DNA of 64,000 bases, from positions 1 to 64,000 of the forward strand of contig JAFLEE010000004.1 in NCBI GenBank assembly GCA_017302015.1, read 5' to 3'. Shown here in pieces: positions 50,641 to 60,572 of this stretch. Made by a program: the position numbers and the translations under genes. The notes below the pieces were generated by a model. It was not told the origin of the DNA. It searched no databases and saw only the letters and a list, made by a program, of their open reading frames with translations. The DNA comes from Spirochaetota bacterium (GTDB lineage: Bacteria; Spirochaetota; UBA12135; COTS27; JAFLEE01). Every line of letters begins with the position of its first letter. Position 1 is the first letter of the stretch.

Positions 50641-52701
50641 GTGGCGAAGAAAGACGGCTGGTACGGCGAACGCCGTACCTTCGGCGTGCATTACGACATG
50701 CACGTGAGCGTGGAGGATCGGCATATCGGGGAGAAGCTCTCGGTGGAGGATCTCGTCCTCAACCTGAAGGCGATGAAGTGCGATTGGGCGCAGACCGATT
50801 GCAAGGGCCACCCCGGGGTCACCGGTTGGCGCAGCCGGGTGCCCCACGCGACGGTCAACGAGCACATCCATAAAGACATGATGGAGGCCTGGAGGGCCGC
50901 GACCCACCGCCTCAAACTACCGCTCCATTGCCATTACTCGGGCATCATCGACCACGCGGCGGGCGAACTCCACCCCGAATGGAGGGTGGTGCAGGGCCCT
51001 TGGGTGAAGAAGGCCCCCGAGATGCACCGCATGTGCCCGCGGTCGGCCTATCTAGACGAACTCCTCATCCCCCAGCTGCTCGAACTCATCGACCGCTACG
51101 GGGTGGACGGCTTTTGGGTGGATGGCGACCTCTGGGGCGTGGACCCCTGCTATTGCCCCCAGTGCAGGGCGGCGTTCGCGGAAAACACCGGCATCGCCGA
51201 GCCGCCGGTGGAGACGACGGAGGCCCATTGGCCCGCCTGGATGAAATTCCACCGGGAGAGTTTCGACGCCTACGTCACGAAATATTGCGACGCGGTGCAC
51301 CGGCACAAACCCGGGGTGAAGGTGTGCTCGAACTGGATCCAGACCTTCGGCGACCCGGGCGAGCCCACGGCCCCGACCGACTGGATCAGCGGGGACAATA
51401 CCTGGGTCTTCGGCATGGATTCCAGCCGCTGCGAGGCGCGCTTCATCTCCACCCGCGGCAAGCCGTGGGACCTCATGCTCTGGAACTTCTATTGCACCGG
51501 CGGGTTCGCGAACCTCGAGACCCAGCCCTGGGTGGTGAAGCCGGCCCAGATGCTCATGCAGGAGGCCGCCGTCTCCCTGGCCCTGGGCGGGCACGTGCAG
51601 GTGTACGAGGCGACCCAGTACGTGCGCGACGGGCGGCTCATCCCCTGGAGGTCCCGGCGCATCGGCGAGGTGGCCGAGTTCGTCAAGGCGCGCCGGAAGG
51701 TCTGCGGGCAGACCGAAACGATCCCCCAGGTGGCCGTGCTCCATTCCGAGCACCATTACCGCAGCGTCGTCGGCCGCAACCTCCACGCGGGCAACGACAC
51801 CGCCGGGGTGCGCGGGGCGGTGTTCTCGCTGCTGGAGAAATCCTACGGGGTCGACGTGCTCGACGAGTGGGCGCTGCGGCCCCGGCTCTCCGATTTCCCC
51901 GCGGTCGTGGTCCCCGAGCAGTGGAACCTCTCCGGGGAGATGGCGGGGAAACTAAAGGACTACGTGGAGGCGGGCGGGGGGCTCCTCGTCAGCGGCGCCC
52001 AGGCCTTCGCCAAATTCGGCGCGGCCTTCCTCGGGGCCGACGGCGATGGCCTCGTCGACGTGGACGGCGGCGAAACCCCGAGCGAGGGGTTCCCCTCGAA
52101 GACGTCCCATTGGTGCGTGTCGGGCGGGGCGGATGTGGGCCCCGTCTGGAGCCGCCAAATCCGCCTCTTGGAGCCCTCGGGGGGGAAGGCCCTGTGCTTC
52201 TTCTGCCGGACGCCCTTCCCCGATTCAGATCTCACCCCCTATCCCGCGGCCGTGGTCCACCAGGTCGGGAAAGGCTGCGTGGTCTACGTCCCCTTCGATG
52301 TCTTCAAATACTTCCACGCCAACCGGTATCCCTTCGTGCGCGAGTTTATCGCGCAGGCCATGGAGGCCCTGAAGATCGATTGGGCGATCCGGGCCTCGGC
52401 CCCGGTGGCCGTCGATGTCGTCCTGCGGCGGCGCGCGAAGGAGCGGATCGTGCACTTCATCCACCGGGGATCCGGAATTCCGAACCTCCCCCAAAGCGGG
52501 GCGATCGATGAGGTCTTCCCCGTGGGGCCGGTGGCCGTGAAGATGGCGCTGGAGCGGCGGCCGAAAGAAGTGGCCCTGGCCCTGGAGGGCGGGAAAATGG
52601 CGTGGAAATTCAAGGCGGGCGTGGGGAAGGCGCCGGGGCGCCTGACGGTGGAAATCCCGCGGGTGCGCCTCCACGAGGCCCTGGTGGTTCGCACCGCTTG
52701 A
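50641..52701 (+). CDS. TIM-barrel glycoside-hydrolase-like protein with amidotransferase-like domain
   Basis: 686 residues. The N-terminal TIM barrel (1-360) has GVDGFWVDGDLWGVDPCYCPQC, where a strand-end Asp and a CxC/CxxC cysteine cluster resemble GH42/GH29-type or uncharacterised GHL enzymes. The middle (about 375-560) looks like the beta-galactosidase trimerisation/glutamine-amidotransferase-like domain (QVAVLHSEHH, AGGGLLVSGAQAF). A small beta domain ends the protein. There is no signal peptide. The exact GH family is unclear. The GTG start has GGAGG 6 nt upstream. A possible TATAAT box lies at 50601-50606. Its stop codon overlaps the -35 box of the export operon. Confidence 0.8.
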   Translation: MAKKDGWYGERRTFGVHYDMHVSVEDRHIGEKLSVEDLVLNLKAMKCDWAQTDCKGHPGVTGWRSRVPHATVNEHIHKDMMEAWRAATHRLKLPLHCHYSGIIDHAAGELHPEWRVVQGPWVKKAPEMHRMCPRSAYLDELLIPQLLELIDRYGVDGFWVDGDLWGVDPCYCPQCRAAFAENTGIAEPPVETTEAHWPAWMKFHRESFDAYVTKYCDAVHRHKPGVKVCSNWIQTFGDPGEPTAPTDWISGDNTWVFGMDSSRCEARFISTRGKPWDLMLWNFYCTGGFANLETQPWVVKPAQMLMQEAAVSLALGGHVQVYEATQYVRDGRLIPWRSRRIGEVAEFVKARRKVCGQTETIPQVAVLHSEHHYRSVVGRNLHAGNDTAGVRGAVFSLLEKSYGVDVLDEWALRPRLSDFPAVVVPEQWNLSGEMAGKLKDYVEAGGGLLVSGAQAFAKFGAAFLGADGDGLVDVDGGETPSEGFPSKTSHWCVSGGADVGPVWSRQIRLLEPSGGKALCFFCRTPFPDSDLTPYPAAVVHQVGKGCVVYVPFDVFKYFHANRYPFVREFIAQAMEALKIDWAIRASAPVAVDVVLRRRAKERIVHFIHRGSGIPNLPQSGAIDEVFPVGPVAVKMALERRPKEVALALEGGKMAWKFKAGVGKAPGRLTVEIPRVRLHEALVVRTA

Positions 52702-52726
52702 CATTCTCTCTTTCATGAAATAATAT
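52698..52726 (+). promoter_or_regulatory. Consensus promoter of the GbsR/ABC export operon
   Basis: TTGACA (52698-52703), 17-bp spacer, TAATAT (52721-52726). The -35 box includes the TGA stop of the upstream hydrolase gene, so the two transcription units are packed end to end. Confidence 0.85.
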
Positions 52727-52751
52727 ACGTTCAGAAACTTTTGAACGTATA
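52724..52751 (+). promoter_or_regulatory. Perfect 10-8-10 inverted repeat, probable GbsR/MarR operator
   Basis: Arms TATACGTTCA (52724-52733) and TGAACGTATA (52742-52751), 8-bp spacer. It covers the end of the -10 box and the expected transcription start, 2 bp before the regulator's ATG. That is the usual place for an autorepressor site. The match is perfect over 20 bases. Confidence 0.8.
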
Positions 52752-52753
52752 GA

Positions 52754-53248
52754 ATGATTAAAAAGAAGCCGGCCCCCCGTTCGCCCGCGGTCACCGCGGA
52801 AGCCTCCGAGTTCATCGAGGAGATGGGGCTCACCTTCGAGAAGACCGGCATGCCCCGCATGGCCGGGCGCATCCTGGGGCACCTGCTCATCTGCGACCCG
52901 CCCACCCAGTCCCTCGACCAGATGGGCCAGGCCCTGGGGGCCAGCAAGGCGAGCATCTCCACCATGTCCAAACTCCTCCTCAACGGGGGGTTCATCAAGC
53001 GCGTGGGCGTCAGCGGCGACCGCCGCGATTACCTCACCCTCAAGGTGGGGACGTTCGAGGACATCGTGACGCGGCAGATCCACGACATGATGTCGTTCCG
53101 CAAGATCCTCGCCAAGGCCCTGGCGATCCTCGAGAAGGAAAAGCGGACCGACACGCACCACCTCCACGAGTTCCTCGAACTCTACGAATTCATGAGAAAA
53201 AAAATGCCGGAAATGCTGGCGCAATGGCAGCGGGAGAGAAAAAAATGA
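52754..53248 (+). CDS. GbsR/MarR-family transcription regulator
   Basis: 164 residues. The winged helix of the GbsR/MarR type is clear: ARILGHLLICDPPTQSLDQMGQALGASKASISTMSKLLLNGGFIKRVGVSGDRRDYLTL, with the recognition helix around residues 68-82. The C-terminal helices are probably for dimerisation. It very likely represses its own operon through the palindrome at 52724-52751; ligands of the family vary (drugs, lipids, osmolytes). There is no Shine-Dalgarno before its ATG. It overlaps the ABC ATPase gene by an ATGA junction at 53245. Confidence 0.9.
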   Translation: MIKKKPAPRSPAVTAEASEFIEEMGLTFEKTGMPRMAGRILGHLLICDPPTQSLDQMGQALGASKASISTMSKLLLNGGFIKRVGVSGDRRDYLTLKVGTFEDIVTRQIHDMMSFRKILAKALAILEKEKRTDTHHLHEFLELYEFMRKKMPEMLAQWQRERKK

Positions 53249-53931
53249 GCAACCCCATCCTTCACTTGAGCGGCGTGACCAAGGACTATTGGCTCGGCAA
53301 GGTCAAGGTGCCGGCGCTGCGCGGCATCGACCTCGAGATCGGCAAGGGCGAGTTCATGTCGATCAAGGGGCCCTCGGGCAGCGGCAAGACCACGCTGCTC
53401 AACATCATCGGGCTCATCGACAACGCCACCGGCGGCAGCGTCCTCCTCGACGGGAAGGACGTCACCCGCGAGACCGACAAGAACATGACCCGGCTGCGCC
53501 TCACCAAGATCGGGTTCATCTTCCAGACCTTCAACCTCATCCCGGTGTTCAACGTCATCGAGAACGTCGAGTTCCCCCTGCTGCTGCTGAAGGACCGCAC
53601 GCCCGCCGAGCGGCGCCGCAAGACGATGGAGCTCATCGACGCCGTCGGGCTGCGCCCCTACGTGCACCACCGGCCCAACGAGCTCTCCGGCGGGCAGCGC
53701 CAGCGGGTAGCCATCGCCCGGGCCCTGGTCACCGACCCCGAGATCATCCTCGCCGACGAGCCGACGGCCAACCTCGATTCGGTGACGGGCAAGTCGATCC
53801 TCGAGGCGATGAAGGAGATGAACGAGCGCCGCCAGACGACCTTCATCTTCTCCACCCACGACGCCGGGGTGCTGCAGTACGCGCGGCGCATCGTCGAGAT
53901 CCACGACGGGCTCCTGACGAGCCGGGGGTAA
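53245..53931 (+). CDS. LolD/MacB-type ABC transporter ATPase
   Basis: 228 residues, normal for the LolD/MacB group. Walker A GPSGSGKT (43-50), Q-loop [21 protein letters not shown], signature LSGGQRQR (147-154), Walker B IILADEPT (167-174) and switch His205. Type VII ABC systems of this kind use ATP for mechanotransmission rather than classical import or export across one membrane, for example releasing lipoproteins to LolA. It is fully embedded between its regulator and the two FtsX-like permeases. Confidence 0.94.
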
Positions 53932-53935
53932 GGCC

Positions 53936-55513
53936 ATGAAGAGCGAAACCGCGGGGGGGCCGGCGTCCGGCCGCGCCTTCCTCACCCATACGGCGCTGCT
54001 GTTCAAGATCGCCTGGCGCAACATCTGGCTGCACCGCGGCAAGAGCCTCATCATCGGCATCATCCTCCTCACGGGCACGGTCGTCATGACCGTGGGGAAC
54101 GCGACGATCACCGGCATGGACAAGGGGCTGCAGAAGACCCTCGTCGACGGCCTGCTCGGCGACCTCATGGTCATCGCCCAATCGACCGACGAGGCCTGGG
54201 CCCTCTTGGGCAATATGGGGAAGTCCGCCGACCTCATCCCCGACTTCGAGAAGGTGCGCGACGTCGTCACCAACGACCCCGGCATCATGAAATTCCTGCC
54301 GATGGATTTCGGCATGTTCATGGCGGTCATCCAGGCCGATTCGGCCTCGGGGCAACCGCCGTTCGTGGTGCCCTTGGGCGTGCAGTACGAGCGCTACCTC
54401 GAGATGTTCTCCAACGTGGCCATCGTCAAGGGCCGCGGCCTGAGGCCGGGGGAGAGCGGGATCCTCCTCCACCACACCACCGCCGACCGCCTGTTCAAGA
54501 CCTACGGCTCGATCTTCTCCCCCGTTGACGACCCGTACGCCTTCACGAATTACCTGCCCCCAGAGGCCGGTTCGAATCTGGCGTCGGTCATCATCTCCAC
54601 CGACCTCATCATCGTGGGCATCAGCGACAAGAAGGCCACCCTCGACATCCGGGTGCCGATCATCGGCATCTACAGCAACCAGCGCATCGAGTTCGGGGGG
54701 CAGGGATTCGACCTCATCGACATCCAGTCCTACCGGCAGGGGATGAACTACACCCTCGGCGACGAAGAGGTGAAATTGAGCGCCTCCGAGAACGCGATGC
54801 TCAACATGGACGAGAACGCCCTCTTCGCCTCGTTCTCCGAGAACGTCTCGGGCGCCGGCGCGGTCCTGGGCGACGTGAAATCGCTCATGGTCAAGAAGCC
54901 GGCCGTGAAGGCCGTCGACTACGACCGCGGGGGCACGGAGATCCTGGCCCTGAGGCTCAAGGACCGCCGCCAGGCGGAGGAAGTCCGCGGCCGCTTGACC
55001 AAGGCCTTCAAGGAGAAGAACCTCAAGGCCAAGGTCATCGATTGGCGCAAGGCGGCGGGCACGCTGGCGAACATGGCCTCGGTCATCCGCATCGCCCTCT
55101 TCGTTTTCGTGGGCTTCGTCTTCTTCGTCGCGGGCATCGTCATCGTGAACACCCTGGCCATGGCGACCATGGAGCGTTCCAGCGAACTCGGGATGATGCG
55201 CGCCGTGGGGGCCCAACGGGGGTTCCTCGGCGAGATGCTGCTCACCGAGACCTTCCTCTTGGCCGTCTTCTTCGGGGGGATCGGCATGGTCGTGGGGGCC
55301 GTGATCGTGAAGATCCTCGCCGCGGCCCAGATCCAGAGCACGCCGGGCCTCCTGGTACTCGTGTTCGGGGGCAACGTCTTCAATCCGCTCATGGGCCTCA
55401 AGGACTTCGTGCAGGGCGGCATTCTCCTGACGCTGGTGACCCTCCTCTCGGTCATCTACCCCGCCCGCCTCGCCCAAAGCATCACCCCGCTCGACGCCGT
55501 CAGCCGCGACTAG
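53936..55513 (+). CDS. FtsX-like ABC permease, first subunit
   Basis: 525 residues. The MacB/LolC layout: one N-terminal membrane helix (about 37-58), a large periplasmic domain (60-380) and three C-terminal helices (about 385-520) with the FtsX-type motif [16 protein letters not shown]. The periplasmic domain presumably contacts the downstream LolA-like protein. It starts 4 bp after the ATPase gene. Having two different permease genes makes a LolCE-like heterodimer likely rather than a MacB homodimer. Confidence 0.9.
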
Positions 55514-55529
55514 CGCCCCGGAGAAACCC

Positions 55530-57389
55530 ATGCCCTCCATGAATCCCGTCGTCCTCGCGCTCCTGTCGGTGCTCGGATCCCTCGCGGGGCTTTTCGTGCT
55601 CATCACCCTCGGCGTCATCGCGTGGGACGTGATCCAGACCACCCGCGAGGGGAAATTGCGCCTGGTCTCGAGCCTCTCCGTGCGCAATCTCCTGCGCCAG
55701 AAGCGCCGCTCCATCCTGCTGGGCACGGCCATCGGTTTCGGCATGATGGTGCTCGTCATCGTCGGGGGTTTCGCCGCCGGCCTCTCGGACCTCATGCTCA
55801 ACAAGGTCTTCGCCCTCATGGCCGGCCATATGGAGGTCGCCATCAGCGAGCGCACCACCGTGAAGGCCGCCATGATCCGCGACCGGGCCCGCATCGCCGC
55901 CATCATCTCCAACGGCGCCCCCGACCACACCGAGATCCGGGACAACCTAGGGGTGTTCTCCCGGGTCATCGGCAACGGCAAGGCCTACACCCTCATCGTC
56001 ATCGGGGTGCCCGTGAGCAACGTCGATTCCTACGAGAAGGGCTTCCTCGACTACAACATCGTGGCCGCCCCGGGGAACGACCTTTGGGCACTCACCAACG
56101 CGGGGACCTGCGGCATCTTCGAGGAAAAAGCGAAGAAACTGAACGTCAAGGTGGGCGACAGCATCAACGTTCGCTTCACCAAGATCCGGGGCGCCTACGA
56201 GGCCCGCAGTTATAAGGTCGGCTGCATCTTCAAGGACAGCAGCTTCTTCATGAACATGACGGTCTACGTCGACGAGCGCGACCTGAAGAAAGACCTCGGC
56301 TACCAGCCCTGGGAGACCCCGGGCCTCCAGGTGATGCTGCGCGATACGAGCAAGGCCGAGCGCTACGCCAACGCGATCCATGAGGCGCTGCGGCCCAGCG
56401 CGGCGATCCTCGAGGGGCAATTCGCCGGGCGCTCCCAGGAAACGTTCGCCCTGGCCCCGATCCGGGACGAGTCGCGTTCGAACCTCCTCCAGCGCATCGC
56501 GCTCGTTTCGGGGGATCCGAACGGCCTCAGCAACGCCCTCTGGATCTCCGAGGCCCTGGCCCGCGAGAACGGCCTCTCGGTGGGGAGCCCCGCCACCTTC
56601 CGCTACCAGACCAAGTACGCCGGGATGCGCGACCTGAACTTCACCGTGGGCGGGGTCTACCAGCCCAAGGGAGTCTTGCCCGCCCGCAGTGCGGTCTACG
56701 GGGCCGACCTCCACCACAAGTACTACTACGACGGGATCCCGGCCGAGCACCAGAAGAAGGCGGCGGAACTGCAGGCCTCGAACCACCCCCTGGCCGACGC
56801 GTTCGTGCCGGAATGGACGCTCCTGCCGCGCACCAAGACCTTCGACGCCCAGAGGGCCAAACTCACCCGCCTCTCGTCCACCAAATGGAAGGGCGAGGCC
56901 GTCGACGTGCGCACCCTCAAGGAGAGCGAGTCGTTCGTGCTGAAGCTCGAGCAGGTGCTCAACACCATCGCCTATAGCGGCGTGCTCATCATGTTCTTCA
57001 TCATCGTCATCGGCGTGGTGAACGCGCTGCGCATGACGATCCGCGAGCGCACCCGGGAGATCGGCACGGTGCGCAGCATGGGCATGGACCGCCGCGAAGT
57101 GCGGCTGCTCTTCCTCTTCGAGACGGTCTCGCTCTCGTTTTTCGCCTGCGTCGCGGGCCTCGTCGTCGGCCTCATCCTCATGGGGCTCGGCGGCCTCATC
57201 CATATCCCCAGCACCGGGATCTTCAGCATGCTCCTCGACAACGGGCACCTCCACTTCATGGTCCGCCCCCTGAACGTGATCGTCAATCTCTCGCTCATCC
57301 TAGCCATCACGGCCATCACCGCCTTCTTCCCCGCCCGGCGCGCGGCCAACCTGCACCCGGCCGAAGCCCTCCGCCACACCGCCAGTTGA
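55530..57389 (+). CDS. FtsX-like ABC permease, second subunit
   Basis: 619 residues, longer than its partner. An extra N-terminal membrane helix (8-30) precedes the usual first helix (RSILLGTAIGFGMMVLVIVGGFAAG). The periplasmic domain is about 80-470, and three C-terminal helices follow TIRERTREIGTVRSMGMDRREVRLLFL. It pairs with the first permease to form the membrane part. GGAG lies 6 nt before the ATG. The additional N-terminal helix is unusual for LolC/LolE. Confidence 0.9.
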   Translation: MPSMNPVVLALLSVLGSLAGLFVLITLGVIAWDVIQTTREGKLRLVSSLSVRNLLRQKRRSILLGTAIGFGMMVLVIVGGFAAGLSDLMLNKVFALMAGHMEVAISERTTVKAAMIRDRARIAAIISNGAPDHTEIRDNLGVFSRVIGNGKAYTLIVIGVPVSNVDSYEKGFLDYNIVAAPGNDLWALTNAGTCGIFEEKAKKLNVKVGDSINVRFTKIRGAYEARSYKVGCIFKDSSFFMNMTVYVDERDLKKDLGYQPWETPGLQVMLRDTSKAERYANAIHEALRPSAAILEGQFAGRSQETFALAPIRDESRSNLLQRIALVSGDPNGLSNALWISEALARENGLSVGSPATFRYQTKYAGMRDLNFTVGGVYQPKGVLPARSAVYGADLHHKYYYDGIPAEHQKKAAELQASNHPLADAFVPEWTLLPRTKTFDAQRAKLTRLSSTKWKGEAVDVRTLKESESFVLKLEQVLNTIAYSGVLIMFFIIVIGVVNALRMTIRERTREIGTVRSMGMDRREVRLLFLFETVSLSFFACVAGLVVGLILMGLGGLIHIPSTGIFSMLLDNGHLHFMVRPLNVIVNLSLILAITAITAFFPARRAANLHPAEALRHTAS

Positions 57390-57407
57390 CCCCCACAGGA
57401 GCCCCCG

Positions 57408-58172
57408 ATGAAAACCGTCCTCACCGCCCTCTTCGCATCCCTCCTCCTCGCCGCCACGGCCGCCGCCGAGACGGTGAACGCCGAGTTCCTCCTCAAGAAG
57501 CTCGACCTCATGCAGAAGATGGGCAGCGACATCACCGCCCAGGTCAGCATCATCCAGCAGCGCAGCGGCCAGGCCCCGCGCAAGCTCGAATCGCGCTATT
57601 ACCGCCGCGACTCCGACGATTCGTTCCTCATCCTCATGACGGCGCCCGACGCCGAGAAGGGCAACGGCTACCTGCGCGTGGGCGATAATATGTGGGTCTA
57701 CCGTCGCAATACCCGCAGTTTCCAGCACATCAACCGCGACGAGAGCATCAGCGGCACCGACATGAAGGGCGGCGACTTCGAGAAGCGCAAGATGGCCGAC
57801 CTCTACCGCGCCGTCATGACCAACGGCCGCGAGGCCCTCACCGAGGAGATGCTGGGTAGTAGGCCGGTTTACCGCCTCGAGATCATCGCCAAGGTGGATG
57901 ATGTGACTTATCCGCGGCAAATCATCTGGATGACGAAAGACACCTATCTGCCCCTGAAAGTGGCCAATTATTCCGGCAATATGACGCTCATGGTGAGCCA
58001 ATATTATCTCGCCTACCAGACGATCCTCGGCCGCTATTTCCCCCTTAAGATGGTCACCCGGGACGAGTTCGAAAAGGGAAACCAATCCGCCATGGAGATC
58101 TCGGGCGTCGATACGAGCCCCATCGATCCACGGCTCTTCACGAAGGCGAAACTCGAAGAATTCTCCCAGTGA
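57408..58172 (+). CDS. LolA-like outer-membrane lipoprotein-sorting protein
   Basis: 254 residues. A signal peptide spans 1-20 (VLTALFASLLLAATAAAE). The mature protein matches the LolA-type half-barrel relatives: KLESRYYRRDSDDSFLILMTAPDAEKGNGYLRVGDNMWVY, then RKMADLYRAVMT and PRQIIWMTKDTYLPLKV. These usually carry a hydrophobic cargo through the periplasm. In the classic Lol system LolA hands lipoproteins to LolB; here the next gene is a barrel instead, so the cargo could be a lipid. It lies 18 bp after the permease gene. Confidence 0.87.
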   Translation: MKTVLTALFASLLLAATAAAETVNAEFLLKKLDLMQKMGSDITAQVSIIQQRSGQAPRKLESRYYRRDSDDSFLILMTAPDAEKGNGYLRVGDNMWVYRRNTRSFQHINRDESISGTDMKGGDFEKRKMADLYRAVMTNGREALTEEMLGSRPVYRLEIIAKVDDVTYPRQIIWMTKDTYLPLKVANYSGNMTLMVSQYYLAYQTILGRYFPLKMVTRDEFEKGNQSAMEISGVDTSPIDPRLFTKAKLEEFSQ

Positions 58173-58198
58173 CCGCGTCGATCCCGAGGGGCTCCGCC

Positions 58199-59674
58199 AT
58201 GAAACTTTCCCTGAAAGCCTCCCTGGTCGCCTTGCTCTTGGCGACGGCGACCGCGAACCTCAGCGCGGCCGATGCCGGCCTCCTCAATATGAGCGAAGCC
58301 GAGATGTTCGGCGGCTCCAATAAGATCGAGGTGGATATCCGCACCAACGGCGGCGGCCTCGTCTCCAATGTCTACCCGCAGGTGAAGTTCGGCGGGAATC
58401 TCCACGCCTGGGCCAATTGGGGCATCCGCCGGCCCTGGGAGAACCAAACCTATCAATGGGAAAGCAATACGGTGCAGGCCTATATGCAGGGCGACCTCAA
58501 CCTCGAGGTTCGCGTCGCATCCGGGTTCAAGGTGTTCACCGAGATGAGCCTGGCATATTCCCCCACGGGGCTCCCCGATAAGGCGACGATGCAGCCGAAA
58601 TGGGAGTGGAAGGCGCAAACGAACCAGGTCTTAATAGGAAGTACGGAAAACGGGGTGTTTTCAACACCTGTCTACACAAATATCGTCATCACCAATTACG
58701 TCCAAGTTTGGAACACGAATATTTCCTCCAATAATCTTCTCCTTTCGATGAAGGAGTTTTTCGCCGATTTCAATATCGGCCAGGTTCTCTATTGGCGCCT
58801 CGGCAAGCAGGTGCTCACCTGGGGCCGGGGCTATTTTTGGCAACCGACGGACCTCATCAATATCGAAAAGTTTAACGTGGTGAACCGGGATCTCCTGCGC
58901 GAAGGCACCTACGGATTGCGGCTCCACATCCCCTACAAGACCTATTTCAACCTCTATTCCTTCCTGAACCTGGGAAGCACGCCGGATTTCAAGAAATACG
59001 CCGTGTCGGTCAAGGCCGAAGGCCGCGTCGGGCCGCTGGAACTCGCCGTCTCCTATTTGGGTCGGCCTTACCGTCTCCCGGTATGGGGAGCGGACTTTTC
59101 CGTCGGCGCCCGGGGGTGGAATTTCTATGGAGAGGCCATGTACGCCCTCGAAGGCCAGAACGATCTGCTCAAAACGGCGAACGTGACGACGAACTTCATC
59201 CCTTGGCTCCAGACGAACCTCGTCCTACCCCAGGTCTACCGTCTCTCCAACGATTATCTCAAGGCCTGTATCGGGGTGAGCAAATCGTTCGGGCGCGAAA
59301 ACAAATGGATGTTCGGCTTCGAGGGGTACTATAACGGCGAGGGCTACACCAATAGCGGCGGGCTCTCCGAGTCGAACCTCCAGCCCCTCTTCCAATACGG
59401 CGGCTTCCTTCGCAGCATGGAGCACGGCCAATGGTACACCGCCGCCTACCTGACGCGGAGCGAACTCTTCAACAAGACGACGACGCTCTCCCTCACCGGG
59501 GTGGCGAACTGGTCCGACTGGTCGGGACTGCTCAGCTTTTCGGCGACCTATTCCCCCATCGATTATTTCACCGTGAGCCTGCGCCTTCCCTTCTATATCG
59601 GGGATTCCAACCGCGAGTTCACGTTCCAGAACCAACTCGCGCCCGTCCAATTGGAACTCGCCTACCGGTTCTGA
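58199..59674 (+). CDS. Outer-membrane beta-barrel protein (DUF1302-like)
   Basis: 491 residues from MKLSL. A signal peptide spans 1-22 (ASLVALLLATATANLSA). Repeated amphipathic strands end in an aromatic residue, with a C-terminal LAYRF typical of outer-membrane barrels. The segment WRLGKQVLTWGRGYFWQPTDLIN resembles DUF1302-type barrels that accompany LolA-like and MMPL proteins. It is the last gene of the export operon and the likely outer-membrane station. GAGGGG lies 8 nt before the ATG. A stretch around 58620-58740 has lower GC than its surroundings. Confidence 0.82.
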   Translation: MKLSLKASLVALLLATATANLSAADAGLLNMSEAEMFGGSNKIEVDIRTNGGGLVSNVYPQVKFGGNLHAWANWGIRRPWENQTYQWESNTVQAYMQGDLNLEVRVASGFKVFTEMSLAYSPTGLPDKATMQPKWEWKAQTNQVLIGSTENGVFSTPVYTNIVITNYVQVWNTNISSNNLLLSMKEFFADFNIGQVLYWRLGKQVLTWGRGYFWQPTDLINIEKFNVVNRDLLREGTYGLRLHIPYKTYFNLYSFLNLGSTPDFKKYAVSVKAEGRVGPLELAVSYLGRPYRLPVWGADFSVGARGWNFYGEAMYALEGQNDLLKTANVTTNFIPWLQTNLVLPQVYRLSNDYLKACIGVSKSFGRENKWMFGFEGYYNGEGYTNSGGLSESNLQPLFQYGGFLRSMEHGQWYTAAYLTRSELFNKTTTLSLTGVANWSDWSGLLSFSATYSPIDYFTVSLRLPFYIGDSNREFTFQNQLAPVQLELAYRF

Positions 59675-59768: not shown

Positions 59769-60572
59769 TCAGGATGCCTGGTCGCGTTCTTCGCGGATCT
59801 GGGAGGGGCTTTTTCCGTATTGGCGGCTGAATTGGTTGAAGAAATGGTGGTAATTGCGGTAGCCGCTGAGTTGGGCGATCTCGTTGAGTTTCGCCGATGA
59901 GAACACCACCAGGCTATGGGCGTACTCGAGGCGCCGACGGATGATCCATTCGCTGGGCGAGAACCCGGTGCGCGCCCGAAAGAGCCGGGTGAAATAACTG
60001 GGATGGAGGCCCGCCTGGCGGGCCAATTCGCGGATCTCGGGGGTCGGACCCTCGTGCTGGTCGAGCCAAGCGAGCACGCGGCGCAGGCGTTCGTCTTCGG
60101 GCCGCCGTGGCCCTTGTTCGTCGGGCGTATGGGAGAGGAGGAGGGCGACCCAGCCCAGGAGCCCCTCGGCGGCCCGGTGGAGGTCGAGTTCCGGTCGCCG
60201 CCTGGCCCACAAGAGTTCGTGGAGCGCCCCCTCGAAGCGTTTTCGGTGTTCGACGACCTTGGCGAGGGGAGACACGGGGAAGCGCCCGGCCCACCCCTGG
60301 TCGAAGCGGGCCTTGAGTTGGAAGACGTCGCAAGCCGCCTTCTCGGGGGATGGGAAGGCGAGGCTATGGCGCACGCCCGGGGCGATGGTGATCCAAGTGC
60401 CCCGGGAGGCTTCGAGGGCCACGCCGTCCAGGGTCGCCCGGCAGGAGCCCTTGAAGAGGTAGAGGAATTGGTGGAAATCGTGGACGTGGGCCGGGGCGGA
60501 AAGGTCGACCTGGTTATTCGACCGGGAGAGGAAGAGCACGCGGACGGAATGGGCCATGGGGAATCGTGGCAT
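59769..60572 (-). CDS. AraC-family transcription regulator
   Basis: 267 residues. A cupin-like N-terminal domain (HVHDFHQFLYLFKGSC with histidines near 30) precedes two helix-turn-helices (about 170-262), with the motif LNEIAQLSGYRNYHHFFNQFSRQYGKSPSQ. It probably senses a sugar and controls the divergent Gfo/Idh gene at 60799. The start 60572 is used; an internal ATG at 60557 is a possible alternative. Confidence 0.88.
   Translation of the reverse strand: MPRFPMAHSVRVLFLSRSNNQVDLSAPAHVHDFHQFLYLFKGSCRATLDGVALEASRGTWITIAPGVRHSLAFPSPEKAACDVFQLKARFDQGWAGRFPVSPLAKVVEHRKRFEGALHELLWARRRPELDLHRAAEGLLGWVALLLSHTPDEQGPRRPEDERLRRVLAWLDQHEGPTPEIRELARQAGLHPSYFTRLFRARTGFSPSEWIIRRRLEYAHSLVVFSSAKLNEIAQLSGYRNYHHFFNQFSRQYGKSPSQIREERDQAS

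Follow-up and report, generated by a model that had tools for sequence, protein, structure and literature searches.

A LolD-FtsX-LolA-barrel operon in a Spirochaetota bacterium, separate from the housekeeping Lol pathway and a candidate exporter of hydrophobic molecules

Only a few routes are known by which lipids and other hydrophobic molecules pass across the periplasm, and how they cross otherwise is an open question. The operon described here lies at positions 52698-59674 of a 64-kb window (the whole stretch of DNA analysed) from the 5.4-Mb genome of a Spirochaetota bacterium (contig JAFLEE010000004.1, assembly GCA_017302015.1), and the closest described systems each resemble a part of it. 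In LolCDE-LolA-LolB, the ATPase and the FtsX-type permeases belong to the same superfamily as those of the operon, and the carrier too has the LolA fold. AmeABCD and related DUF1302-DUF1329-RND sets share a DUF1329/PF17131-type LolA-fold carrier together with, probably, a DUF1302-type barrel (PMC6394551). The Borrelia cluster BBJ23-29, for which its authors propose lipid or lipoprotein export, groups a LolD-type ATPase and an FtsX permease with a LolA-like protein and a barrel of the outer membrane (PMC13078400). It is the closest published proposal, and no paper on the exact combination of ABC, PF17131 and DUF1302 genes was found in the open-access PMC literature.

Compared with these systems, the operon is Lol-like in its inner half and AmeABCD-like in its outer half, and it matches the full definition of neither. 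An earlier sequence-only reading had placed six co-directional open reading frames (ORFs) on the forward strand, with gaps of -4, 4, 16, 18 and 26 bp, and the ORF coordinates agree exactly. With families assigned by Pfam and NCBIfam searches, the six genes encode a MarR/GbsR-type regulator homologous to Rv0678 (MmpR5) (52754..53248), a LolD-like ATPase (53245..53931), two FtsX-type permeases (53936..55513 and 55530..57389), a secreted LolA-like carrier of the PF17131/DUF1329 group (57408..58172) and a predicted outer-membrane beta-barrel, probably related to DUF1302, with a signal peptide and a C-terminal phenylalanine (58199..59674). Unlike LolCDE-LolA-LolB, the operon has a PF17131/DUF1329 carrier, a barrel instead of LolB and a local regulator, and it stands beside a separate Lol system. 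Where AmeABCD has an RND inner-membrane pump, the operon has an ABC engine of LolD and two FtsX proteins, and an AmeC-like protein is absent. Nor does it correspond to MacAB-TolC, which has a fused ATPase-permease and a MacA adaptor, whereas here the ATPase and the two permeases are separate and there is no adaptor gene. The Borrelia cluster differs in having one permease and TPR proteins; its barrel is of the Omp85 family. Its carrier (BBJ28) and barrel (BBJ25) gave no match to PF17131 or to the carrier and barrel profiles of the operon, and the likeness of BBJ28 to LolA was reported at the level of fold only (PMC13078400); the cluster looks like an analogue sharing the ABC part.

The sequence-only reading had allowed that the operon might be nothing other than the Lol system of this genome, if no further lolCDE were present. 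A separate lolF-lolD pair and a LolA were found. The best LolC/E homologue elsewhere in the genome, on contig C89, scored 260 bits, compared with 57 and 81 bits for the operon permeases, neither of which attains equivalog status at the 362-bit cut-off, a score reached by no genome searched in the phylum. The C89 protein is a LolF-type permease of 437 amino acids, the gene for which overlaps its own LolD gene. A match to classical LolA (PF03548), split in two, is located on contig C155 and scores 29.6 bits, above the cut-off (23.6). Within the operon there is no LolB-type outer-membrane lipoprotein acceptor, the sixth gene encoding the signal-peptide barrel. At E <= 1e-40, 144 of the 149 genomes of the phylum have a member of the LolC/E family, and none of the 40 with the operon barrel is without one. 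Since lolF-lolD and LolA lie elsewhere and every barrel-bearing genome has a separate LolC/E, the operon is an accessory system, distinct from housekeeping Lol and additional to it, and its interpretation as the housekeeping pathway was rejected. The earlier proposal of a dedicated, regulated inner-to-outer-membrane system apart from Lol is thus well supported, by the separate Lol, by the constant linkage of the genes and by a palindrome on the promoter.

The ATPase matched ABC_tran (7e-32) and, as its best NCBIfam family, LolD (TIGR02211, 224.6 bits, under the equivalog cut-off of 307.75), and contains a Walker B motif (LADEPT) and an H-loop (THD). Both permeases carry the FtsX C-terminal domain (PF02687, 3.4e-14 and 4.2e-19). 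Hydropathy indicates four transmembrane helices and a periplasmic domain of ∼330 amino acids in permease 1, and four helices, an additional N-terminal helix and a periplasmic domain of ∼400 amino acids in permease 2; both domains are larger than that of the genome's own LolF (222 amino acids). The additional helix, a hydrophobic stretch at residues 7-25 to which the sequence-only reading had drawn attention, is real in this genome but specific to it; it was absent from all 73 relatives compared and was rejected as a trait of the system. Another contig of the same genome (G000:C131:10951-22608) has four more FtsX matches, close to LolD-like ATPases.

The carrier matches PF17131 only (2e-35), with no match to PF03548. 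Its AlphaFold2 model (predicted local distance difference test, pLDDT, 92.8) was matched by the DUF1329 protein 4z48 (Z 22.9, root-mean-square deviation 2.8 over 221), by LolA3 of Porphyromonas gingivalis (9tp6, Z 22.8), by 3bk5 (22.5) and by NE2245 (3buu, 20.4), as against a Z of ∼12 for classical proteobacterial LolA/LolB. A Prevotella relative matches both PF17131 and DUF1329, and the carrier belongs to this group of predicted LolA fold. In P. gingivalis, LolA3 interacts only weakly with LolB (PMC13103446), and a Flavobacterium johnsoniae mutant lacking LolA3 showed no phenotype (PMC11885536), so this LolA-fold subfamily probably lies outside the lipoprotein route.

For the barrel, PF06980 (DUF1302) was matched by 13 of 27 family members (best 4.2e-7), and a profile of the family found a Prevotella DUF1302 protein (6.8e-7). 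The model (pLDDT 83.9) gave Z scores of 22-24 to OprD/Occ porins, chitoporin and AlgE; Omp85 was absent among the matches listed for the model, an absence that alone is no disproof. The barrel is probably related to DUF1302 and is predicted to have an OprD/AlgE-like fold. Weak matches to ribosome-inactivating proteins, which fell in an N-rich loop and were not repeated with the profile, were taken as chance. Alignment identified a motif at the N-terminus of the mature barrel, [DSN]-E-x-x-[LM]-F-[SG], which reads SEAEMFG here (58292..58312, forward strand). F37 was conserved in 69/69 and E33 in 66/69 aligned barrels, the window's own included. The motif is present in some divergent members (L183 and L187); among the barrels looked at from permuted-order, RND-linked or proteobacterial sets, none showed it. 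Because the model has low confidence at the motif, a role in docking is a guess.

The barrel was found in 40 of the 149 Spirochaetota genomes and close carriers (E < 1e-58) in 44. When the carrier was scanned against the genomes of 84,980 species, 80 loci were recovered from Spirochaetota, Fibrobacterota, Elusimicrobiota, Margulisbacteria, Desulfobacterota and several candidate phyla. LolD, FtsX1, FtsX2, the LolA-like carrier and the barrel occurred together on one strand in 63/63 loci with enough DNA to be scored for five genes; their order was strict in 61, and the other two differed merely in overlapping ORF calls. The remaining 17 loci lacked one to three genes, nearly all through contig ends. 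The clustering of the transporter genes is therefore not chance, and the possibility left by the sequence-only reading, that these genes would never be linked in other neighbourhoods, does not hold. The six-gene unit which that reading described is present in this genome, but the conserved unit is five genes (LolD-FtsX-FtsX-LolA-like-barrel) with an exchangeable regulator. The carrier tree largely tracks phyla (17 label changes compared with 44.7 in shuffles), from which the system is probably old; the window carrier itself lies on a long branch. Distant PF17131 paralogues in Spirochaetota show a second arrangement, LolA-barrel-LolD-FtsX-FtsX (L190, L192, L193, L198 and L199), with shorter barrels of ∼370 amino acids that have no N-terminal E-x-x-[LM]-F motif. 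This survival of linkage through rearrangement of gene order argues for the gene set being one machine.

Two elements upstream of the regulator add to what the sequence-only reading had described. The start that it gave, 52698, is the first base of the TTGACA box of a sigma-70-like promoter, TTGACA-17-TAATAT (52698..52726, forward strand, 10/12 consensus matches), the -35 of which coincides in part with the stop codon of the preceding gene. The chance expectation at this level of match is 1.2 sites for the whole region, so the position of the promoter counts for more than its consensus match. An imperfect 28-bp palindrome, TATACGTTCAGAAACTTTTGAACGTATA (52724..52751), a probable operator, lies over the -10 and the leader. 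Twelve of its 14 pairs are complementary, and a chance palindrome at the promoter is unlikely because just one other 28-bp stretch in the window is as good. With up to three mismatches allowed in the arms, the palindrome has a single copy in the genome, and a search for a regulon by means of this operator found no second site there. The promoter-like site and the single-copy palindrome at 52698-52751 give the operon its own promoter and, as judged from the sequence, probably a private operator.

The Pfam match of the regulator was weak (MarR_2, 1.4e-5, just below the curated cut-off). Its residues 16-159 align almost end to end with residues 15-158 of 4nb5 (phmmer, 3.4e-23), which is Rv0678 of Mycobacterium tuberculosis (PMC10156607), and the homology is thus full length, extending past the DNA-binding domain. 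Rv0678 represses MmpL exporters, and its binding of 2-stearoylglycerol lowers DNA binding (PMC6463170). Rv0678 with MmpS5-MmpL5 offers a parallel, a homologous regulator that controls a hydrophobe exporter, although that exporter is a pump of the RND/MmpL type. The regulator has few relatives in the phylum, found in 8 of the 149 genomes. In one of these, G136, a third arrangement (L211, 7482-14070) has LolA-like, FtsX, FtsX, LolD and barrel genes followed by an Rv0678-like regulator, an independent linkage of this regulator type to the system. The leading gene is a TetR regulator in L096, L105, L125 and L140 and an unrelated gene in most other lineages, and the regulator is therefore an exchangeable part outside the core.

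Clues to the cargo come from related sets. AmeABCD (DUF1302, DUF1329 and RND) of Castellaniella defragrans confers monoterpene tolerance (PMC6394551), and Pseudomonas putida requires its DUF1302/DUF1329 pair on Tween 20, a pair that is correlated with an efflux transporter (PMC10866462). A Prevotella set on a plasmid record has the order TetR-ABC-ABC-MMPL-PF17131-DUF1302, and a Burkholderia LolD-FtsX-LolA set is near an apparent ketoacyl synthase III gene (sequence read by eye). On a plasmid of Rahnella sikkimica (L176, 17866-32698), LolD-unknown-FtsX-LolA-barrel genes are found inside a fatty-acyl/polyketide-type biosynthetic cluster with genes for a ketosynthase (KS), FabZ, ACP, AcpS, an SDR and a malonyltransferase (AT), the product of which may name the cargo class. 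By analogy, these sets point to a fatty or hydrophobic cargo, and the DUF1302/PF17131 pair may be an exchangeable outer half served by an ABC or an RND engine. Lipopolysaccharide (LPS) was rejected as a general cargo because LpxC was not detected in 19 of the 40 barrel-bearing genomes, some of which are incomplete. The window's genome has an LpxC (G000:C91:457-1278). The open frame that contains it has 429 codons, ∼110 more than in most relatives; one other family, f12, is similar, and the protein is possibly a fusion.

Taken with these analogies, the data appear to suggest that the operon encodes a regulated exporter which is driven by an ABC transporter and moves a hydrophobic, lipid-like molecule, not lipoproteins, and this is the interpretation we consider probable. 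An Rv0678-like repressor would sit on the promoter palindrome and be released by a lipophilic ligand. The ATPase and permeases would then extract the molecule from the inner membrane, and the soluble carrier of predicted LolA fold would take it into its groove and cross the periplasm. Docking on the DUF1302-type barrel, perhaps via the N-terminal E-x-x-[LM]-F motif, would let the molecule leave by way of the barrel, either to the outer leaflet or to the outside. A wider proposal is made tentatively and with less confidence: that a LolCDE-like ABC part, a DUF1329-type carrier and docking on a DUF1302-type pore through E-x-x-[LM]-F form a general envelope-spanning export pathway for lipids or hydrophobic metabolites in several phyla with and without LPS. 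As the compact five-gene set covers every envelope layer, is apart from Lol, recurs across phyla and has its own switch in this genome, cargo, carrier and pore may be tested together.

Several observations weigh against export of a hydrophobic small molecule. The flanks of the operon are not conserved and no cargo gene is linked, so that the substrate rests on analogy. The window barrel has no Pfam match of its own, PF06980 included, and an Rv0678-like regulator was linked to such a gene set in two genomes only, among those seen. Lipoproteins are also carried by LolA-fold proteins, and DUF1302/DUF1329 genes are known from contexts of uptake and degradation too, the outward direction here being inferred. 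The sequence-only reading had proposed a lipid or lipoprotein; the lipid-like or hydrophobic part is favoured, and the lipoprotein part disfavoured, because the DUF1329/DUF1302 group, to which the carrier belongs and the barrel probably does, handles hydrophobic compounds elsewhere. The same evidence makes it unlikely that the operon is a second Lol pathway reserved for particular lipoproteins, in which the barrel would be their insertase or a pore for surface export. LolD and FtsX are indeed homologous to LolCDE, the carrier has a predicted LolA fold, LolB is absent from the operon and the Borrelia cluster was so read by its authors (PMC13078400). However, the DUF1329/DUF1302 group is tied elsewhere to MMPL/RND pumps as well as to hydrophobic compounds, the barrel model is best matched by porin-type barrels, the Borrelia carrier and barrel are unmatched by the operon profiles and no neighbouring gene family shows consistent linkage.

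An alternative to an induced exporter of a single compound is anterograde transport, in bulk, of a phospholipid or glycolipid that forms part of the outer-membrane structure. This would fit the occurrence of the system in genomes with and without LpxC, a LolA tree that suggests an old trait, and the frequent lack of a linked regulator; its patchy distribution among relatives (barrel in 40/149, close carrier in 44) and the local regulators of several sets make it improbable. Least probable, and given little credence, is a role in detoxification, in which the operon would pump out foreign hydrophobic compounds (solvents or antimicrobials, for example). The MarR- or TetR-type local regulators and the monoterpene protection by AmeABCD (PMC6394551) agree with such a role, but consistently linked neighbours are lacking and the Rahnella relative lies within a biosynthetic cluster.

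The operon is preceded by a glycoside-hydrolase-like gene (50641-52701), which ends 52 bp before the regulator, and is followed by a convergent AraC-type gene (59769-60572, reverse strand). No Rfam or tRNA features were detected in the window, and no adjacent gene family was consistently linked in the loci compared. Copies of the operon were also found in bins labelled Methanocella, an archaeon, and Bacillota (L170, L113, L138 and L142); the archaeal copy is probably a misbinned contig, while the Bacillota copies, which form one supported clade, may be real. In L095, L105, L118 and L101, ∼2 to 4 kb is inserted between core genes. A Chitinivibrionales contig (L098, 10001-18395) carries the operon and, nearby on the opposite strand, a second divergent set of the same parts.

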